From Alphaproteobacteria bacterium MedPE-SWcel (GTDB lineage Bacteria; Pseudomonadota; Alphaproteobacteria; Rhodobacterales; Rhodobacteraceae), in NCBI GenBank assembly GCA_001874255.1, contig MPDC01000018.1, positions 20,834-84,833 on the forward strand: a stretch of DNA of 64,000 nucleotides. The letters are read 5' to 3'. The position numbers were made by a program, and so were the translations under genes. How positions within the stretch are numbered: the stretch's first letter is position 1; each line of letters begins with the position of its first letter. Positions 8,283-55,285 of the stretch are shown piece after piece. Below the pieces are notes generated by a model. It had not been told where the DNA came from and made no database searches. It saw nothing but the letters and a program-made list of their open reading frames with translations.

Positions 8283-8758
8283 TTCGTCTCCTTGAACATG
8301 TGGCGGCACTGCGGTGTCGAGATCGCCCAATACGCCGCAGCGTGCGCGGTGACAAGGACATGTGGTGCGCGATCCGCAAAGATGGCCGCTGCAGAGCGCC
8401 GTCCGGCCCCGCCCCTGCCGCAGGACGCGAAACATGAGGAGGAGGATCGTGGAAATGCGGCCGACTGGCAAGGTTTCGATCACGCGGGCCCGCACAGGCG
8501 TGTTCCCAGGCCGACACATTCGGGTCGCGCGCACAGTTTGGTTGAGTCGCGCGCGCAGCGAGGCACCAGGGGGACTGGCGACCACTCAGGGGCTGCGGCG
8601 CGTCTTGTGCCCGCGCCCCGGTGCAGGTCGGATGGCCTGCCGGACGCGCCCAGTTCAAATCGACCTGTCCAAATCGACCTGTCCAAATCTACCCGTCCAA
8701 ATCTACCGGTGTCAGGCTACCGGCGTCAGCTGTCCTGCATCGGGTCACCGGTGTCCGG
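8283..8758. other. 476-bp lepB-rnc spacer without a credible gene
   Basis: The overlapping ORFs on both strands here share no family resemblance, lack good ribosome binding sites and run through tandem repeats, so I treat the stretch as non-coding. It holds the rnc ribosome binding site at its left end and the 14-bp tandem array at 8656-8711 near the lepB stop. Confidence 0.6.
8656..8711. repeat. Tandem array, 4 x 14 bp, 3' of lepB
   Basis: Four head-to-tail units are visible: CAAATCGACCTGTC twice exactly, then CAAATCTACCCGTC and CAAATCTACCGGTG. Further degenerate ACCGGTGTC-like pieces continue to the lepB stop at 8759. Confidence 0.9.
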
Positions 8759-9595: not shown

Positions 9596-9739
9596 CAGGC
9601 TCTCCGGTCATTATGGGACAGGTCCGGGCGTACATGCGGGGCCACCCGCCGCAAGTCAAGTCGGCCCGGCGGGCGGCCGCCATCAGACGTCAGGATCGCA
9701 TGGGACTGTGGACCCTATGCCGCAGGTTTGCGGATCCGC

Positions 9740-9862
9740 GAGGGGGAACTCCCGCCCCTTTGACCATGAGGCGGAGCCTCCCGGCAAAGCGTTGGGCCGG
9801 GCGGGGGCCGCGCCGAAGGCGCGGCCCCCGCCCCCTCGCGATGCGCAACGCGCAGCGCAAAT
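9740..9862. repeat. Dispersed ~124-bp repeat, copy 2 (inverted relative to copy 1)
   Basis: The hairpin at 9799-9833 has the same 16-bp arms as the copy at 1684-1718, with loop GAA instead of TTC because the element is inverted. Flanking blocks (GTTGGGCCGGGCGG, GCGATGCGCAACGCGCAGCGC, CTCCCGCCCCTTTGA) match the reverse complement of 1655-1778. Confidence 0.85.
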
Positions 9863-9910
9863 CCTCTGGCCGTCGCCTGCGTCATGTCACATCTGTTGTC
9901 ACGCCCGGGA

Positions 9911-9945
9911 TCACTGGCGGAGTCACTGCGGAGTCACTGGCGGTA
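9911..9945. repeat. Degenerate tandem repeat, 3 x 11-12 bp
   Basis: TCACTGGCGGAG, TCACTGCGGAG and TCACTGGCGGTA follow one another about 90 bp beyond the acpS stop (minus strand). Confidence 0.75.
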
Positions 9946-10032
9946 TCAATCGCGCCCCGGGGGCACTGGCCGTCTCGCCGACAGTCTCATGCCGGTTCGG
10001 CGATGTTGCCGAGCCCGCGTTGCCGTTCGACC

Positions 10033-16028: not shown

Positions 16029-16601
16029 ATGTTTTACAAGGACGAACGGCTTGCGCTGTTCATAGATGGCTCGAATTTATATGCTGCTGCGAAAGCATTG
16101 GGCTTTGACATCGACTACAAGCTTCTGCGCCAGGAATTTATGCGGCGTGGAAAACTTGTTCGAGCGTTCTACTATACCGCGCTGCTTGAAAACGACGAGT
16201 ACTCCCCGATCCGGCCTTTGGTGGACTGGTTGCACTATAATGGTTTCACCATGGTGACAAAACCGGCCAAAGAATACACCGACAGCATGGGCCGACGCAA
16301 AGTCAAAGGCAATATGGACATCGAACTCGCGGTCGATGCCATGGAGCTGGCGCCGCGTGTCGACCACATCGTGCTGTTCTCCGGCGATGGCGATTTCCGC
16401 CCGTTGATTGCCAGCCTGCAACGGCAGGGCGTACGGGTCTCCGTCGTCTCGACCATCCGCAGTCAACCGCCCATGATCTCGGATGAGCTGCGCCGCCAGG
16501 CCGACAATTTCATCGAGCTGGAGGAATTGCGCGACGTGATCGGGCGCCCGCCACGGGATATTCCCGCCGACGTGCGCCCGCCGGCCTCTGTCACAGGTTA
16601 A
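16029..16601 (+). CDS. NYN domain (LabA/DUF88-like) putative ribonuclease
   Basis: A 190-aa protein with a PIN-like NYN fold. Acidic residues at the expected metal sites are seen in LALFIDGSNLYAA (Asp13), KGNMDIELAVDAME (Asp near 97 and 103) and VLFSGDGDFRPLI (Asp near 117-119). LabA-type NYN proteins are presumed RNases; the target is unknown. It is divergent from folK, and a strong terminator lies 145 bp after the stop. The stop region has been tandemly duplicated (see 16590-16689). Confidence 0.9.
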   Translation: MFYKDERLALFIDGSNLYAAAKALGFDIDYKLLRQEFMRRGKLVRAFYYTALLENDEYSPIRPLVDWLHYNGFTMVTKPAKEYTDSMGRRKVKGNMDIELAVDAMELAPRVDHIVLFSGDGDFRPLIASLQRQGVRVSVVSTIRSQPPMISDELRRQADNFIELEELRDVIGRPPRDIPADVRPPASVTG

Positions 16602-16689
16602 ATCGGTCACGGGCTAAGTCAGTCACTGGCTAGAGCAGTCACCGGCTGACACCGCGTTGCTAGAGCAGTCACCGGCTGACACCGCGTTG
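16590..16689. repeat. Stop-codon-containing tandem array (4 x 16 bp) merging into a perfect 2 x 30 bp duplication
   Basis: Four units start GTCAC: GTCACAGGTTAAATCG, GTCACGGGCTAAGTCA, GTCACTGGCTAGAGCA and GTCACCGGCTGACACC. The first holds the real TAA stop of the NYN gene; the others carry TAA, TAG and TGA at the same place. Positions 16630-16659 are then repeated exactly at 16660-16689. Confidence 0.95.
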
Positions 16690-16745: not shown

Positions 16746-16773
16746 ACGCCCGGCAGATCCGTCTGCCGGGCGT
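16746..16773 (+). terminator. Intrinsic terminator of the NYN gene
   Basis: ACGCCCGGCAGA, loop TCCG and TCTGCCGGGCGT form a perfect 12-bp stem followed by TTT, a textbook rho-independent terminator. It separates the NYN transcript from ispH. Confidence 0.92.
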
Positions 16774-16896
16774 TTTATCATGCGCCGCCACGCCCCGAGC
16801 CCCTCCGCCGCAACGCTGGCACTGGACGTCGACGGATGCAGAGCTTACCTCTGGGAGAAATCTGAACGCCTCCTGCCGATTGAGGACCGCCCCCGC

Positions 16897-17850
16897 ATGA
16901 CCACACCCAGACCTCCGCTTACCCTCTACCTCGCTGCGCCCCGCGGTTTCTGCGCCGGCGTCGACCGCGCGATCAAGATCGTGGAGATGGCGTTGGAAAA
17001 ATGGGGCGCGCCCGTCTATGTGCGCCACGAGATCGTGCACAATAAATTCGTTGTGGACGGTCTGCGGGAAAAAGGCGCGGTCTTTGTCGAGGAGCTGGAG
17101 GAATGTCCCGATGACCGGCCGGTGATCTTTTCCGCCCATGGCGTCCCGAAATCAGTGCCCGATGCCGCCAGCGCCCGCGAGATGGTCTTTGTCGATGCGA
17201 CCTGCCCCCTGGTGTCAAAGGTTCACATCGAGGCGCAGCGCCATGCCGAGGCCGGCCTGCAGATGATCATGATCGGTCACAAGGGCCACCCGGAGACGAT
17301 CGGCACGATGGGGCAATTGCCGGAGGGCGAGGTGCTGCTGGTCGAGACCGTCGCCGATGTTGCCGAGGTCGTGGTGCGTGACCCCGACCGCCTGGCCTTT
17401 GTCACCCAGACGACCCTGTCGGTCGATGATACCAAGGACATTGTAGCAGCCCTGCAGAGCCGGTTTCCCGCCATCATCGGCCCCCACAAGGAAGACATCT
17501 GCTATGCCACCACCAACCGTCAGGAAGCGGTCAAGGCGGTGGCGCCGAAATCCGACGCCCTGCTGGTGGTCGGCGCGCCGAATTCGTCGAATTCCCGCAG
17601 ATTGGTCGAGGTGGGCGCCAAGGCCGGCTGCAAATATGCGCAGCTGGTGCAGCGGGCCGAAAATATCGACTGGCGGGCACTGGAGGGTATCCGCTCGGTG
17701 GCGATCACGGCCGGGGCCTCGGCGCCGGAACTGTTGGTGAATGAGGTCATCGACGCTTTCCGGGACCGCTACGATGTCACCGTCGAAATGGTGGAAACTG
17801 CGGTGGAACGGGTAGAATTCAAGGTGCCACGCGTCCTGCGCACGGCCTGA
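16897..17850 (+). CDS. ispH: 4-hydroxy-3-methylbut-2-enyl diphosphate reductase
   Basis: IspH is the last enzyme of the MEP isoprenoid pathway, a [4Fe-4S] reductase making IPP and DMAPP. 317 aa. The three cluster Cys are visible in [13 protein letters not shown] (near residue 17), [12 protein letters not shown] and [13 protein letters not shown]; the [13 protein letters not shown] block is the family's (S/T)xGAS(A/T)P motif. The ORF track begins at 16657, upstream of the NYN terminator; ATG 16897 ([19 protein letters not shown]) fits the family. It seems to have its own promoter after the terminator at 16746. Confidence 0.96.
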
Positions 17851-17890: not shown

Positions 17891-17961
17891 GTTCGGGTCT
17901 GATCGGGTTCGGGTCTGATCGGGTTCGGGCCTGATCGGATCGGGTCTAATCGGATCGGGCC
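17891..17961. repeat. Tandem array, about 4.5 x 15-16 bp, 3' of ispH
   Basis: GTTCGGGTCTGATCGG twice exactly, then GTTCGGGCCTGATCGG, ATCGGGTCTAATCGG and a partial unit, in the 226-bp spacer between ispH and the LysE gene. Each full unit carries TGA or TAA. Confidence 0.9.
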
Positions 17962-24277: not shown

Positions 24278-25450
24278 ATGAATTTCGACACGATCACCGA
24301 CCGCCGCGGGACCCATTGCGCAAAATGGGATATGATGGAGCCGCTCTACGGCGTGTCGCCCGACGACGGCCTGGCCATGTGGGTGGCCGATACGGATTTT
24401 CAGGTGCCCGAGGTGGTCTCGGCGCGGCTGCGCGAGATGGCGGATCATGGCATCTATGGCTATGTCAACCGCGAGTCGGAGTACAAAGGCGCGATCCAGT
24501 GGTGGATGGAACACCGGCACGGCTGGCAGGTCGATGCGGATGCGATTTTCACCACCACCGGCCTAGTGAACGGGGTCGGTCTCTGTCTCGATACTTTCAC
24601 GCAGGCGGGCGACGGCATTGTCCTGTTCACCCCTGTCTATCACGCCTTTGCCAAGGTCATCCGCCTTGCCGGGCGCGAGGTGGTGGAATGCCCGATGGTG
24701 GTGGAGGATGGTCTCTATACCATGGACTTTGCCGCCTATGACGCGCAAATGACCGGCCGCGAGAAAATGGTGATCCTGTGCTCGCCCCATAATCCCGGCG
24801 GCCGGGTCTGGACGCAGGCGGAATTGCAGGGCGTCGCCGATTTCTGCAAACGCCATGACCTTTTGCTGATTTCCGACGAGATCCACCATGATCTGGTGTT
24901 TGGCGACGCGCGTCACATCCCGATGCCGCTGGCCGCGCCGGAGATCAGCGACCGGCTGATCATGCTGACCGCGCCGTCAAAGACCTTCAACTTTGCGGGG
25001 CTTCATACCGGGCAGGTCATCCTGCCGGATGAGGGGCTGCGCGAGCGGTTCCGCCGACGGATGCTGGCGATTTATCTGCAGGGAAATTCCGCGGGCGAGA
25101 CGGCGACGATTGCGGCCTATTCCCCCGAGGGTGTCGCCTATGTCGAGGCGCTGCTGCCCTATCTCGATGGCAACCGCAAGCTGTTCGACGCTGCCGTCAA
25201 CGCCATTCCGGGCCTGAAGTCGATGGAGCTTCAATCCACATATCTGGCGTGGGTGGATTTTTCCGGCACTGGCATGAGCCGCGAGGACTTCACCCGGCGG
25301 GTCGAACAGGGCGCGCGGATCGCCGCGAACCATGGCACCACATTCGGCAGCGGCGGAGAGAACTGTCTTCGGTTCAACCTCGGCACCCAGAGGGCGCGTG
25401 TCCAGGAGGCCTGTGACCGGCTGACGCAGGCTTTTTCGGACCTTCAGTAG
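24278..25450 (+). CDS. MalY/PatB-type PLP-dependent C-S lyase or aminotransferase
   Basis: A 390-aa fold-type I PLP enzyme of the MalY/PatB group, which cleaves cystathionine and other cysteine S-conjugates. N-terminal FDTITDRRGTHCAKWDMM and VSPDDGLAMWVADTDFQVP are hallmark blocks; ILCSPHNPGGRVW, LISDEIHHDLVF and TAPSKTFNFAGLHTG (PLP Lys) complete the active site. In Roseobacters such lyases can act on sulfur compounds, but the true substrate is not visible. The stop-codon region is duplicated (25445-25470). Confidence 0.92.
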   Translation: MNFDTITDRRGTHCAKWDMMEPLYGVSPDDGLAMWVADTDFQVPEVVSARLREMADHGIYGYVNRESEYKGAIQWWMEHRHGWQVDADAIFTTTGLVNGVGLCLDTFTQAGDGIVLFTPVYHAFAKVIRLAGREVVECPMVVEDGLYTMDFAAYDAQMTGREKMVILCSPHNPGGRVWTQAELQGVADFCKRHDLLLISDEIHHDLVFGDARHIPMPLAAPEISDRLIMLTAPSKTFNFAGLHTGQVILPDEGLRERFRRRMLAIYLQGNSAGETATIAAYSPEGVAYVEALLPYLDGNRKLFDAAVNAIPGLKSMELQSTYLAWVDFSGTGMSREDFTRRVEQGARIAANHGTTFGSGGENCLRFNLGTQRARVQEACDRLTQAFSDLQ

Positions 25451-25470
25451 AGCCCTGCAGTAGAGCCGCG
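25445..25470. repeat. Stop-codon duplication, 2 x 13 bp
   Basis: CAGTAGAGCCCTG followed by CAGTAGAGCCGCG; the TAG in the first unit is the stop of the MalY-type gene. Confidence 0.9.
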
Positions 25471-25491: not shown

Positions 25492-25541
25492 TTCGCTTCG
25501 GGTCAAGTTCGCTTCGGGTCACGTTCTCGCTCCCGGTCAAG
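25492..25541. repeat. Tandem repeat, 3 x 16-18 bp
   Basis: TTCGCTTCGGGTCAAG, TTCGCTTCGGGTCACG and TTCTCGCTCCCGGTCAAG. A related CTTTGCTTCGGGTCAGA lies at about 25571. All fall in the 197-bp spacer between two convergent genes. Confidence 0.88.
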
Positions 25542-25613: not shown

Positions 25614-25648
25614 TTGCGGGGCCTGACCGATTGCGGGGTCCTGACCGT
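25614..25648. repeat. Tandem duplication, 17 + 18 bp, at the stop of the minus-strand gene
   Basis: TTGCGGGGCCTGACCGA and TTGCGGGGTCCTGACCGT abut the TGA stop of the gene ending at 25648. Confidence 0.88.
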
Positions 25649-26013: not shown

Positions 26014-26321
26014 CGACGTCCCCCCGACGGCTCTTGAGTCGGGAACAAAGATGGCCCGAATTTCGCTAAAATCAAGTGAAGACAGCTGTGACATCCGGTC
26101 GCCAACCAAGGTGTTGTTCCGGCGCCGCGTCCGGGACCGCCGAAACGCGCGGCAGCCCCGGACCGTGGCGCTGCGGATCGGGACCGTCGAGTGGGACCGT
26201 CGATTGGGACTGTCGATTGGGACTGTGCGCCGGTGCAGAGGCCCTGCGCATGGGCACGGGTAGCCGTCGCGCCCCTCGCCTCCTATCCTTTGTTCCATGA
26301 CATGGAGAGCGAGGGCGACGG
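26014..26321. other. 308-bp divergent spacer with a 13-bp tandem array
   Basis: This lies between the minus-strand hypothetical gene and the plus-strand GST gene and should contain both promoters. The only clear structure is the 4 x 13 bp array at 26180-26231; no operator palindrome was found. Confidence 0.6.
26180..26231. repeat. Tandem array, 4 x 13 bp
   Basis: GGGACCGTCGAGT, GGGACCGTCGATT, GGGACTGTCGATT and GGGACTGTGCGCC, in perfect phase, about 90 bp upstream of the GST-family start. Confidence 0.93.
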
Positions 26322-30635: not shown

Positions 30636-30647
30636 CCTCTCGGCGCC

Positions 30648-30677
30648 GGTTCACTCTGCGACGGTTCACTCTGCGAT
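30648..30677. repeat. Tandem duplication, 2 x 15 bp, 3' of the transglycosylase
   Basis: GGTTCACTCTGCGAC followed by GGTTCACTCTGCGAT, 12 bp after the stop codon. Confidence 0.92.
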
Positions 30678-30704
30678 GGGTCTCTATTCCGGGCCAGAAT
30701 CGTC

Positions 30705-30746
30705 CGTCAGCCCACCGTCGGGCCACCGTCAGCCCCCTCAGGCCAC
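30705..30746. repeat. Tandem repeat of 11-bp units across the smc stop
   Basis: CGTCAGCCCAC, CGTCGGGCCAC and an expanded CGTCAGCCCCCTCAGGCCAC. On the minus strand the last contains the smc TGA, and the first unit carries another TGA at the same place. Confidence 0.82.
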
Positions 30747-33700
30747 CAATGCCTCGGCCTTTTTCAGATCGACAGAGACCAGCTGGCTGACCCCCTTCTC
30801 CTGCATGGTGACGCCAAAAAGGCGATCCATCCGCGCCATGGTCACCGCGTGGTGGGTGATGATCAGGAACCGCGTGTCGGTCTGGCGACACATCTCGTCG
30901 AGCAGATCGCAAAAGCGGGTCACATTGGCGTCGTCCAGCGGCGCGTCGACCTCGTCCAGCACGCAGATCGGCGCCGGGTTCGACAGGAAGACCGCAAAGA
31001 TCAACGCCATCGCTGTCAAAGTCTGCTCGCCGCCGGACAGCAGCGACAGGGTCGACAGTTTCTTGCCCGGCGGCTGGCACATGATCTCCAGCCCGGCGTC
31101 CAGCGGGTCATCGCTTTCGACCATCAGAAGGTTCGCTTCGCCACCGCCGAACAAATGCGTGAACAGCATCGTGAACGAGGCGTTCACCTGTTCAAAAGCC
31201 GTCAACAGCCGCTCGCGCCCCTCCCGGTTGAGACTGGCAATACCGGAGCGCAGAGTCTTGACCGCCTCTTCGAGGTCCAGTTTCTCGGCCACCAGAGTGT
31301 CGTATTCTTCCTGCACCTCGCGGGCATCTTCTTCGGCCCGCAGGTTCACCGCCCCCAGCGCGTCGCGCTGGCGTTTGTGACGGTTGACCTCGACCTCCAG
31401 CTCCTCGGCGGTGGGCATGTCCTCCGGTGCCACGCCGAGCTTTTCGAGAAGCGCTTCGGGCGCCAGTTGCATCTCTTCCAAGATCCGCTCTGCGGTGGCG
31501 TCGACGGTCTCGCGGGCGGCCTCGGTGCGGGCCTCGGAACGGGCGCGGGCCTCGCGCGCCTCGGAGGCCAGCCGCTCCGCCTCGCGTTCGGTATGGACGG
31601 CCTCGCGCAGGATGCCCTCGGCGACAACGAGCGCCTCGGTGGCCTCTGACTTGCGGGTTTCCGCCTCCGCGATCTGGTCATTCAGCTCTTCGCGCATCTC
31701 GGCGATTTCACCGGGGACGGCCATCGCGTCCTCCAGCTCTTCGAGACTGGTCTCGCGACGCTCTTCCAGCTCTGAAATCCGCTTGTCGGCCGAGTCCAGC
31801 CGGTGCCGCCACCCCGAGATTTCCTTTGTCACCGTCTGCGCCCGCTTGGTGCGGGCCTCGCCCTCGCGGCGCAGCTCGTCCAGCGCCGAGCGATGTGACA
31901 GCATGGTGATCCGGGCCGCCTCGACGCTGTGTTTTATATCCTCGACCCGGGCGCGCGCTTCGGCCAGATCGCCAAGCCCCGCCTGTGACGTTTCGGCCTC
32001 CTTCAGCTGCAACCGCGCGGTCATCGCGTCTTCTTCGTGACGGGCGACGGCAATGCCGAAATTCTCCAGCTTGCCTTCTGCGAGGTTGCGCTCCGCCTCG
32101 GCCCGGCTCAGGGCCCGCGCCGCATCGGCCACCCGCTGGTCAGCCGTCCGCCGGGCCTGACGGGCCGCCTGATCGGCGCGGGTCACCTCCTCCAGTTTGC
32201 GCATCAGGGTCTCATGCGCGGCCTGCGCCCCTTCCGTGCGGGCATTGGCGTGGGCCATATCCTGCTTGAGCGCCTCCAGGCGGTTCATCTGCTCCAGCCG
32301 CATGGCGGCGGCGGAGGGTGCATCCTCCGCCCAAGACCGGTAGCCGTCCCAGCGCCACAGGTCGCCCTCCGGCGTCACCAGCCGCTGACCCGGCTGCAGG
32401 GTCGGCTGCAGGCGCGCCGCGCTGTCCGGATCGACCACGCCGATCTGCGAAATCCGGCGCCAGAGCGCCTCCGGGCCGTCCACGAACTTGGCCAGAGGAT
32501 CGGCCCCGTCCGGCAGCGGCATGTCACGGGCATAGGCCGGCAGATGGAGCCAGCCCGTCGGGCCGTCACTCTCGGCCAATGGCGCCCGCAAGTCGTCGGC
32601 CAGAGCCGCGCCAAGCGCCTTTTCATAGCCGGGCGTGACCCGCAGGTCATCCATGACCTGCCCCCCCTCGGCCGTGTCGCGTTCCACCAGTTTCGCCAGC
32701 GCCGTGACTTCGGCCCGCAGGGCGCCAAGCTCGCCTTCGGCCTCGGAGCGCTGTGCCCGGGCCTCGGTTTCATGCGCCTGCGTCTGGGTGCGCAGTTCAT
32801 CCGCTTCGGCCAGAGCCTCTTCGGCCAGTTCCGCCGCGTCCCGCGCCTCTTCCTCGGCTTCGACGGCCGTTTCAAACGCCTCTTCCGACCCGGCAAGCGC
32901 CTCCCGCGCGAGGCCCATGGCGGCCTGAGCCCGTGTGCCTTCTGCCTCTGCCCGGTCCAATGCGCGGCGGCAATCCTCGACCGATCGCTGCGCCGACTGG
33001 TGGCGGGCGGCGAGGCGGGCGACGTCTTCTGTCACCTGCGACAGGTGATCCTCGCCCGTCTGCAGGATCACGGCAGAGTCCCTGGCCAGCTCTGCGGCTT
33101 CTTCCATGCGGTCCTCGTGGCCCTCGCCCGCCTTGGCCAGTTCCCGCTTTTCCCATTCCAGCCGCTCGATGGTCTCGCCCGCGTCCTTGTTGAGGCCGGT
33201 TTCGCGATCGATGTCATTGCCGAGCTGCTGGATCCGGTTGTTCAGCCGCTCGATGCTCTGGCGGGCCTGCGCTTCCTGATCAGACAGGGCATCGCGCTGC
33301 ACCACAAAGCGCTGCAGGATCGCGGCCGCAATCGCCTCTTCCTCGCGCAGCGGTGGCAGGCTCTCTTCGGCGTCGGCGCGTTTGACCGCAGCCGCGCGGG
33401 CCAGCGCCTCTGCCTTGGCGGCCTGTGTCACCCGGATGCGCAGCTCGTCTTCGGCGCTGGCCCGGGCCTCGTCGGCCTCGCGCCAGCGGCGATACAGCAG
33501 CGTCCCCTCGGCCAGTCGCAGCTTTTCGCCAATTTCCCGGTAGCGCTGCGCCTGTTTCGCCTGCCGCCCCAATTGCCCGAGTTGGGTGGCCAGCTGTTCG
33601 ATGACATCATCGACCCGCAACAGGTTCTGTTCGGTGCTGCGCAGCTTCAGCTCTGCCTCATGGCGCCGCTGGTACAGGCCGGAGATGCCTGCGGCCTCTT

Positions 33701-45872: not shown

Positions 45873-46287
45873 CGTCTCCTCCGTGGGGTTCACTGTCCGA
45901 CACCGCCCCCTCTTGCCAGATCAGGTCGCCCCGGCGCAATCCGCTTTCCCGCCCGCTTTCCCCGCCTGCACAGTCACCCGCAGATCTGCCTGCACAGCCG
46001 CCCGCCTTCCCCGCCTTCTGCGCAGGGTGGCAAAGCCTGACTTGACTCCGGCGGGCCAGAGGGGTACGTCCCTCGCAACTCCGGAAGCCTCTTGTGACTT
46101 CCGGTCCCCGCGTCATTTCGGGGATCGCCCTCCACCAGCGCGTTGCGCCCGTGGGGGCAATACTGTTTGGATCGTTCCCATCCGGCGCCCTATTGTGGTG
46201 TCACCGACCGGGGGCGATTGTGCATCGTTCCACCGCCCCCTACATCTGGGGCACACGTTTTAAACCGGCAAAGGAGGCCGAGAGGGC
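45873..46287. other. 415-bp divergent spacer proX/ffh
   Basis: No credible gene; track ORFs here are short and low-complexity. A 17-nt motif near CTGCACAG recurs at 45966 and 45989 (CCGCCTGCACAGTCACC and TCTGCCTGCACAGCCGC), a weak direct repeat. The end carries the ffh ribosome binding site (AAAGGAGGCCGAGAGGGC). Both promoters must lie here. Confidence 0.55.
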
Positions 46288-51546: not shown

Positions 51547-51664
51547 GAGGTGCGCCGCTCCGGTTTTGGTGTGCCGGTAAACCACCGGTGCAGTGCTACG
51601 CCATATCTCGTCCGCGCGCAGCCGCCGCTGAGATGACTGTCAAGGTCCGGGTCACAGGCCAAAG

Positions 51665-51706
51665 TATCAGGTCTCGGTGTATCAGGCTTCGGTGTATCAG
51701 GCGCCG
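51665..51706. repeat. Stop-codon duplication, 3 x 15 bp, at the phosphotransferase 3' end
   Basis: TATCAGGTCTCGGTG, TATCAGGCTTCGGTG and TATCAGGCGCCG. On the minus strand each reads CCTGATA; the TGA of the last is the real stop of the gene at 51697, and the two following are in-frame copies. Confidence 0.92.
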
Positions 51707-53760: not shown

Positions 53761-53873
53761 CCTGCGTTTGCACAGTTTGCTGCAATGAGACAGCCTCCTG
53801 GGTTTGCACTGTCTCCGGGCTTTGCACAGTCTGATAGGTTTGCACTATCTGCCAGGTTTGTGCTGTCTCCGGG
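53761..53873. repeat. Degenerate tandem array, about 5 x 17-22 bp
   Basis: Units around GTTTGCACAGTTTGC, GGTTTGCACTGTCTCCGGG, CTTTGCACAGTCTGATAG, GTTTGCACTATCTGCCA and GGTTTGTGCTGTCTCCGGG share TTTGCACWGTCT. The unit order and spacing vary more than in the other arrays. Confidence 0.85.
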
Positions 53874-53969
53874 GGCAGGGACAGTTTCCAGCGGCTGCCT
53901 TGGTGGCGCAATAGCGTTCCGCCTGCGAGCGCCTCGGCCGCCGCTCCCGGCCTGATGCGTTCAAACGGA

Positions 53970-53993
53970 CTTGCAAACAGGCTTGCAAACAGG
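53970..53993. repeat. Perfect 2 x 12 bp duplication
   Basis: CTTGCAAACAGG occurs twice head to tail, preceded by a third partial copy TCAAACGGA at 53961. Confidence 0.88.
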
Positions 53994-54842: not shown

Positions 54843-55285
54843 ACCGGACTGGACCCTTGATGACAACTCGAAACGCCGCCCTCCGGGCGGCGTTTTCCGT
54901 TATCCCCCTGGCCCGTTATCCGCCTGGCCCCCACAAGCCCCCTGCCCCCCATGCGCCCGGTCTGACGGCGCCCTGCCTGACTTACGCCCGGTCTGACTAC
55001 GCCCGGCCTGACCGCACCCGACCTGATACATGGGGCCTGATGCTTGGGACCTGATGCACGGCGCCAGACACATCAGATTATGCGGCCGGATGCGGCAATA
55101 GACGCCGAATTTGGGTCAACAGACCGACTGTCCTGTCGTGAATTCACACAGCCAAAGTCATTGAAGAGAAACAGGCTCTAATACAGGGCCTTATGCGCTT
55201 TCCATTGATTCGCGCCGCCTCTATAGTCTCGGCAAAGACAAGAGCGCCTTGGCAAAAGGCTGCAGCTTCAAAGGGATCCTTGTAG
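54843..55285. other. 443-bp rpmE-mipZ spacer
   Basis: It holds the rpmE terminator (54871-54896), then a C-rich stretch with loosely repeated CCTGAC and CGCCCGG words (about 54955-55060), and finally about 200 bp of less GC-rich sequence that should contain the mipZ promoter. I see no gene. Confidence 0.6.
54871..54896 (+). terminator. Intrinsic terminator of rplS-rpmE
   Basis: AAACGCCGCCC, loop TCC, GGGCGGCGTTTT: an 11-bp stem with the U-tract partly in the stem, 28 bp after the rpmE stop. Confidence 0.93.

Follow-up and report, generated by a model that had tools for sequence, protein, structure and literature searches.

The spacers of Alphaproteobacteria bacterium MedPE-SWcel hold many short tandem arrays, some of which copy the stop codon of the gene that they follow, and these arrays are probably intergenic minisatellites that arise by untargeted short tandem duplication and slippage, are elevated in this lineage and survive where constraint is weak. 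The apparent link to stop codons is most readily accounted for by the places in which duplications persist. The starting point was a stretch of 64,000 nucleotides, here called the window (G000:C10:20834-84833), for which the original prediction had described a recurring local process that copies stop codons at the ends of genes. The literature was searched for this pattern and no account of it was found.

Materials and Methods

The source draft genome comprises 4.08 Mb and belongs to a genus that includes Tritonibacter multivorans; the sampled congeners include T. multivorans CECT 7557 and Epibacterium sp. Ofav1-8, and one genome per species entered the comparison. The closest sampled species, G010, has a DNA identity of about 89% over the window. 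Arrays were surveyed in 1.64 Mb of the source genome (the window and 20-kb stretches) using TRF and a codon-model gene caller, with a TRF score of at least 50 and a period of at least 7 as the cut-off, and distance profiles use the nearer half of each spacer in 25-nt bins. Perfect tandem duplications were counted for units of 10–60 bp, the rates of the other congeners being pooled by summing per-genome rows. Junction homology was taken from simple two-copy duplications; a value from all exact duplications (mean 3.5 nt) was set aside, as decayed three-copy arrays inflate it.

Results

The NYN-domain gene (16029–16601, plus strand; a gene call whose name comes from the original prediction) is conserved beside ispH in the genus, and its 3' end with the stop forms the first unit of a 16-bp array of 3.6 copies (16590–16647, plus strand; this and all following arrays are TRF calls) with the units GTCACAGGTTAAATCG, GTCACGGGCTAAGTCA, GTCACTGGCTAGAGCA and GTCACCGGCTGA. 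As had been described, the NYN stop (16599–16601) is recopied as TAA, TAG and TGA, the units carrying TAA, TAA, TAG and TGA, and the copies are out of frame. Next to it are a perfect 30-bp tandem duplication (16629–16689, plus strand; two copies, 100%, 1 nt of junction homology) and, 3' of the array, a terminator-like hairpin with a T-run recognised by sequence inspection (16746–16776, plus strand); similar hairpins are present in congeners that have no array at this place. The downstream gene ispH (16897–17850, plus strand, identified by homology) starts at 16780 according to the gene caller, the start at 16897 being the one used for the spacer comparison, and 40 nt 3' of its stop lies a further 16-bp array of four copies that does not include the stop (17891–17953, plus strand). 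No array was found in the NYN–ispH spacer of the other congeners sampled, and only a few more-distant Rhodobacteraceae have one.

TRF reports an array at or near every site named in the original prediction, the one placed at 53761 lying in fact at 53795–53874 (18 bp, 4.4 copies, plus strand, 152 nt past a stop). Among the sites said to begin at or carry a stop, the NYN array is joined by a 13-bp duplication at 25441–25467 (plus strand), in which the TAG stop (25448–25450) occurs twice, and by a 15-bp array of 2.6 copies at 51664–51702 (minus strand) with three in-frame TGA codons, but the 17/18-bp duplication at 25614–25647 (minus strand) only abuts the stop of the 25648–26094 gene without containing it. 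The 11/22-bp array at 30704–30747 (minus strand) does overlap the stop of the 30738–34193 gene, which the prediction named smc, but the copied stop does not keep its register along the array. The 13-bp array of 3.7 copies at 26176–26223, listed in the prediction among the arrays without the stop, is situated in a divergent spacer, where two starts adjoin and no stop is nearby. Further arrays are found at 8656–8707 (14 bp, 3.7 copies, minus strand, 51 nt past the stop of the 8759–9595 gene), 9911–9943 (11 bp, 2.8 copies, minus strand), 25492–25526 (a 16-bp duplication, plus strand, 41 nt past a stop), 30639–30676 (15 bp, 2.5 copies, plus strand, 3 nt past a stop) and 53962–53993 (12 bp, 2.7 copies, plus strand), and compound arrays of 16, 31, 15 and 14 bp lie 3' of a terminator-like hairpin at 54897–55073 (plus strand). 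Words of the form GGYCTGAC recur in the compound arrays of this last spacer (54843–55285). Rfam has a single match in the window, to an ffh RNA (46114–46165, 65 bits).

The claim that such arrays follow many genes holds up, as in the 1.64 Mb an array is present in 23% of spacers between convergent genes, 8% of those between co-directional genes and 6% of those between divergent genes. A comparison with shuffled sequence, proposed along with the prediction, gave a clear excess over chance: when spacers are taken in isolation, arrays occupy 3.2% of their bases against 0.00–0.06%, or roughly 0.04%, in five dinucleotide-shuffled sets. Across the 1.64 Mb, coverage is 3.5% in noncoding and 0.26% in coding sequence, and the noncoding coverage of 50-kb controls is 0% in Pseudorhodobacter turbinis, 0.7% in Paracoccus denitrificans and 0% in Sinorhizobium meliloti. 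The units differ per site, as the prediction had stated, and do not constitute one repeat family. It is therefore very improbable that the arrays are footprints of mobile elements, in the form of target-site duplications left after excision, or members of a dispersed family such as MIRU or REP. Some target-site duplications overlap the 8–16 bp size range, and MIRUs overlap start and stop codons, but here the units of different sites are unrelated and share no dominant word, periods spread over 8–20 bp with up to 5 copies, no mobile element was seen inserted between two unit copies, and the sole Rfam match of the window lies elsewhere.

How are the arrays placed relative to genes? Counted outward from stops in 25-nt bins, coverage is 4.7, 6.5, 7.1, 6.8, 4.7 and 3.9%, and up to 300 nt it does not leave the range of 3–8%, whereas the corresponding bins before starts hold 0.7, 1.6, 2.3, 1.5, 2.4 and 3.1%, with a climb to 4–7% beyond about 150–250 nt. 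The pattern is unchanged when, as a control, each gene is made to begin at the farthest upstream start codon available to it. The higher coverage after stops than before starts that the original prediction anticipated is thus present, amounting to about 3- to 7-fold in the first 100 nt, but it is caused by a deficit near starts: coverage is flat from the stop onward and equal to the level far from starts, which indicates that stops do not attract arrays and that starts and coding sequence exclude them. Array 5' ends are mildly over-represented at up to 10 nt from stops, with 29 where about 17 would be expected (p = 0.007), although coverage within these 10 nt is not raised; we assume an edge effect in which arrays accumulate at the border of coding sequence, from which they are barred.

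The proposed link to stop codons and transcription ends is not supported by these profiles. A process coupled to the ends of translation or transcription, for instance through RNA polymerase arrest, R-loops or replication–transcription conflict, could create duplications at 3' ends and would account for the 3- to 7-fold ratio and the mild excess of 5' ends at stops; given a profile that is flat to 300 nt and a density far from starts that equals the density near stops, we consider it unlikely. Moreover, 118 spacers have a terminator-like hairpin, and in these, arrays cover 3.8% of the sequence from stop to hairpin and 8.6% of that past the hairpin. This speaks against coupling to the end of the transcript, as do the arrays in divergent spacers and the lack of a strong C-over-G skew. 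A reading of the arrays as Rho sites was dropped, their C/G skew barely differing from that of other spacer sequence. There is also a tendency for stop-containing spacers, but not divergent ones, to exceed those of several relatives in length, in keeping with untargeted duplications that survive where constraint is weak.

The period is divisible by 3 in 69 of 76 coding arrays, while noncoding arrays distribute over the remainders 0, 1 and 2 as 63, 46 and 53. Arrays that overlap a stop have a period divisible by 3 in 7 of 23 cases, and in two thirds of them, the 16-bp NYN array included, the stop is copied out of frame. Protection from read-through, which the original prediction had suggested, is not supported by stop copies that are mostly out of frame, in-frame ones being no commoner than one in three. 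This agrees with the eubacterial survey by Ho and Hurst, in which selection for additional in-frame stops was not found (PMC6764699). Selection of the copies as a back-up for the real stop is hard to credit on the same grounds, and most arrays contain no stop, even though a stop is retained at 38 of 46 copied stop positions.

Simple two-copy duplications above chance are mostly 8–16 bp long, with few larger ones. Restricting the set to units of 10 bp or more and homology below 5 nt leaves 25 duplications, in which the junction homology is 0 nt in 10, 1 nt in 6 and 2 nt in 6, that is, 0–2 nt in 22; about 55%, 29% and 11% are expected for 0, 1 and 2 nt if no homology is required, so that any preference for homology is weak. 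End joining, one of the mechanisms offered in the original prediction, is excluded in its canonical, Ku-dependent form, as Ku (PF02735) is absent from 18 of 18 genomes of the genus and was found in the control B. subtilis. A flap-processing or exonuclease mutator by gene loss is not supported either, since the PolA 5'-nuclease domain (PF02739), RecJ (TIGR00644) and the ExoVII large subunit (TIGR00237) are present in both the source genome and G010 in a presence test. A 974-aa open frame at xseA, considered as a fusion, is merely an upstream antisense extension across the neighbouring gene. It is conceivable, if rather doubtful, that a lineage-specific Ku-independent process, for example the fill-in of paired nicks 8–16 nt apart, requires little homology, acts mainly in noncoding origin-distal DNA and rapidly rewrites 3' spacers.

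G010 differs from the source genome at every array compared, including examples at 25451, 26095, 30636 and 54843. It has no counterpart of the arrays at 8656–8707 and 9911–9943, the latter adjoining a long G+C-rich inverted repeat (GGGCGGGGGCCGCGCCGAAGGCGCGGCCCCCGCCC) that is conserved in G010 within the spacer 9596–10032. At its counterpart of the 25441 array CAATAGG is repeated at the TAG of G010, the 26176 spacer has an unrelated 12-bp array, and different CCTGATCCACCTGG repeats correspond to 54897–55073. Among 98 orthologous spacers, arrays occur in both species in 5, in the source genome only in 7 and in G010 only in 3, and this co-occurrence has p = 0.007 once the origin region is left out; the value is 0.03 when only spacers of 150 nt or more are counted and 0.13 with a minimum of 200 nt. 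In the shared spacers the best unit similarity is 0.42–0.75 (random mean 0.50, 95th percentile 0.67); that the same spacers hold unrelated units shows that turnover is fast, in line with the recurring local process originally proposed. Correspondingly, 14% of array bases can be aligned to G010, compared with 69% for array-free spacers.

In noncoding sequence, perfect tandem duplications occur at 3.38 per 10 kb in the source genome, 4.35 in G010 (5 duplications in 11.5 kb), 0.80 in the other congeners (6 in 75 kb) and 0.21 in 80 Rhodobacteraceae loci, which all surround one gene, include a few congeners and serve as a rough baseline; the source genome is elevated at p = 6e-5 over the other congeners and p = 5e-16 over the 80 loci. 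The coding rates are 0.18, 0.26 and 0.05 per 10 kb for the source genome, the other congeners and the 80 loci, respectively. The coding rate of the source genome does not exceed that of its congeners (p = 0.27), so the data do not show a simple increase in mutation across the genome. In the rest of the genus, coding duplications are commoner than in other Rhodobacteraceae (p = 4e-4). Duplication thus seems to be somewhat elevated at the level of the genus, with the source genome and G010 further raised in noncoding sequence only. In addition, tandem repeats make up 5.8% of a small intergenic sample from Rhodobacteraceae bacterium UBA9292 (L107, 11 kb), so other lineages may have a similar elevation.

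An ordinary mutation rate combined with relaxed spacer constraint in this lineage might also let duplications accumulate, an explanation that we regard as possible but not favoured. It fits a noncoding rate about 4-fold that of the congeners with a coding rate no higher, as well as the poor alignment of array-bearing spacers to G010 even outside the arrays (42% versus 69% for array-free spacers); however, the strong depletion near starts implies that spacers are still constrained, and the genus-wide coding excess over other Rhodobacteraceae points to a mutational component.

The arrays are not evenly spread over the chromosome. Intergenic tandem repeats are almost absent origin-proximally in both species: the gidAB–parAB origin region (C12; gene names assigned by position and size) has 0 perfect duplications in 20.8 kb of noncoding sequence (p = 0.001), and no TRF arrays were found in its G010 counterpart (C124). 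Origin-proximal G+C is lower than elsewhere, at 0.575–0.586 with a GC3 of 0.66–0.68 (C12 L012 and L160–L169; C124 L241–L244 of G010), and GC3 correlates with array coverage (rho 0.54), a relation that need not be causal. The empty region might reflect tighter constraint, or mutation may follow a different regime there. C12 was considered as a plasmid because of a RepB/ParB-like match, but it is syntenic with the gidAB–parAB origin region of the 3.2-Mb contig of G009. A simple origin-to-terminus gradient was likewise rejected, contigs mapped on G009 giving a patchy picture in which only the origin region is clearly empty.

Discussion

Bacterial minisatellites, or VNTRs, are the closest known counterpart, with head-to-tail units of about 10–50 bp, a mostly intergenic location and rapid change between related genomes; the arrays described here have units of about 10–60 bp above chance by TRF against shuffles and vary relative to G010. 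They differ in their high density where the spacers of the two sister species are unconstrained, in their near absence from most relatives and in having units private to each site. MIRUs resemble them as tandem units able to overlap stop codons; however, MIRUs are one dispersed homologous family, and homologous units at many loci, as in MIRU or REP/BIME, were not found here, the units being unrelated between sites. Extra stops shortly past the true stop recall the additional, or tandem, stop codons of yeast (PMC1088959) and eubacteria (PMC6764699), but the copies here are mostly out of frame and by-products of duplication. A survey of short tandem repeats downstream of bacterial transcription ends (PMC12699852) reports a preference for sites 3' of genes in bacteria and archaea; it deals with short units, of which some of up to 9 bp are mentioned, and with weak effects, in contrast to mostly 11–20 bp here, and the profile here indicates that arrays are kept away from starts, not drawn to ends.

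How might untargeted duplication give rise to this arrangement? A local duplication of roughly 8–16 bp would need little or no sequence homology, slippage between the copies would then gain or lose units, and old arrays would be eroded by substitutions. We infer that the mutational event is replication slippage or polymerase template switching, and that selection acts as a filter. The duplication rate, or the tolerance for duplications, would be raised in the source species and its sister G010, and purifying selection would clear nearly all coding duplications, in-frame ones excepted, and most of those near starts. Copied stops are then a by-product, since the protein stays the same when the first copy of a duplication spans the stop. 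The excess of array 5' ends at stops and a coding rate no higher than that of the congeners count against untargeted duplication under selection, as does the empty origin region, which a uniform process does not predict.

In conclusion, a mutational process without any target can, through selection, appear to be directed at stop codons. The source species and G010, a sister pair with about 16–20 times the family level of perfect intergenic tandem duplications, provide a natural comparison with low-level congeners alongside, and with array-poor congeners beside such a pair the origin of bacterial minisatellites becomes testable.
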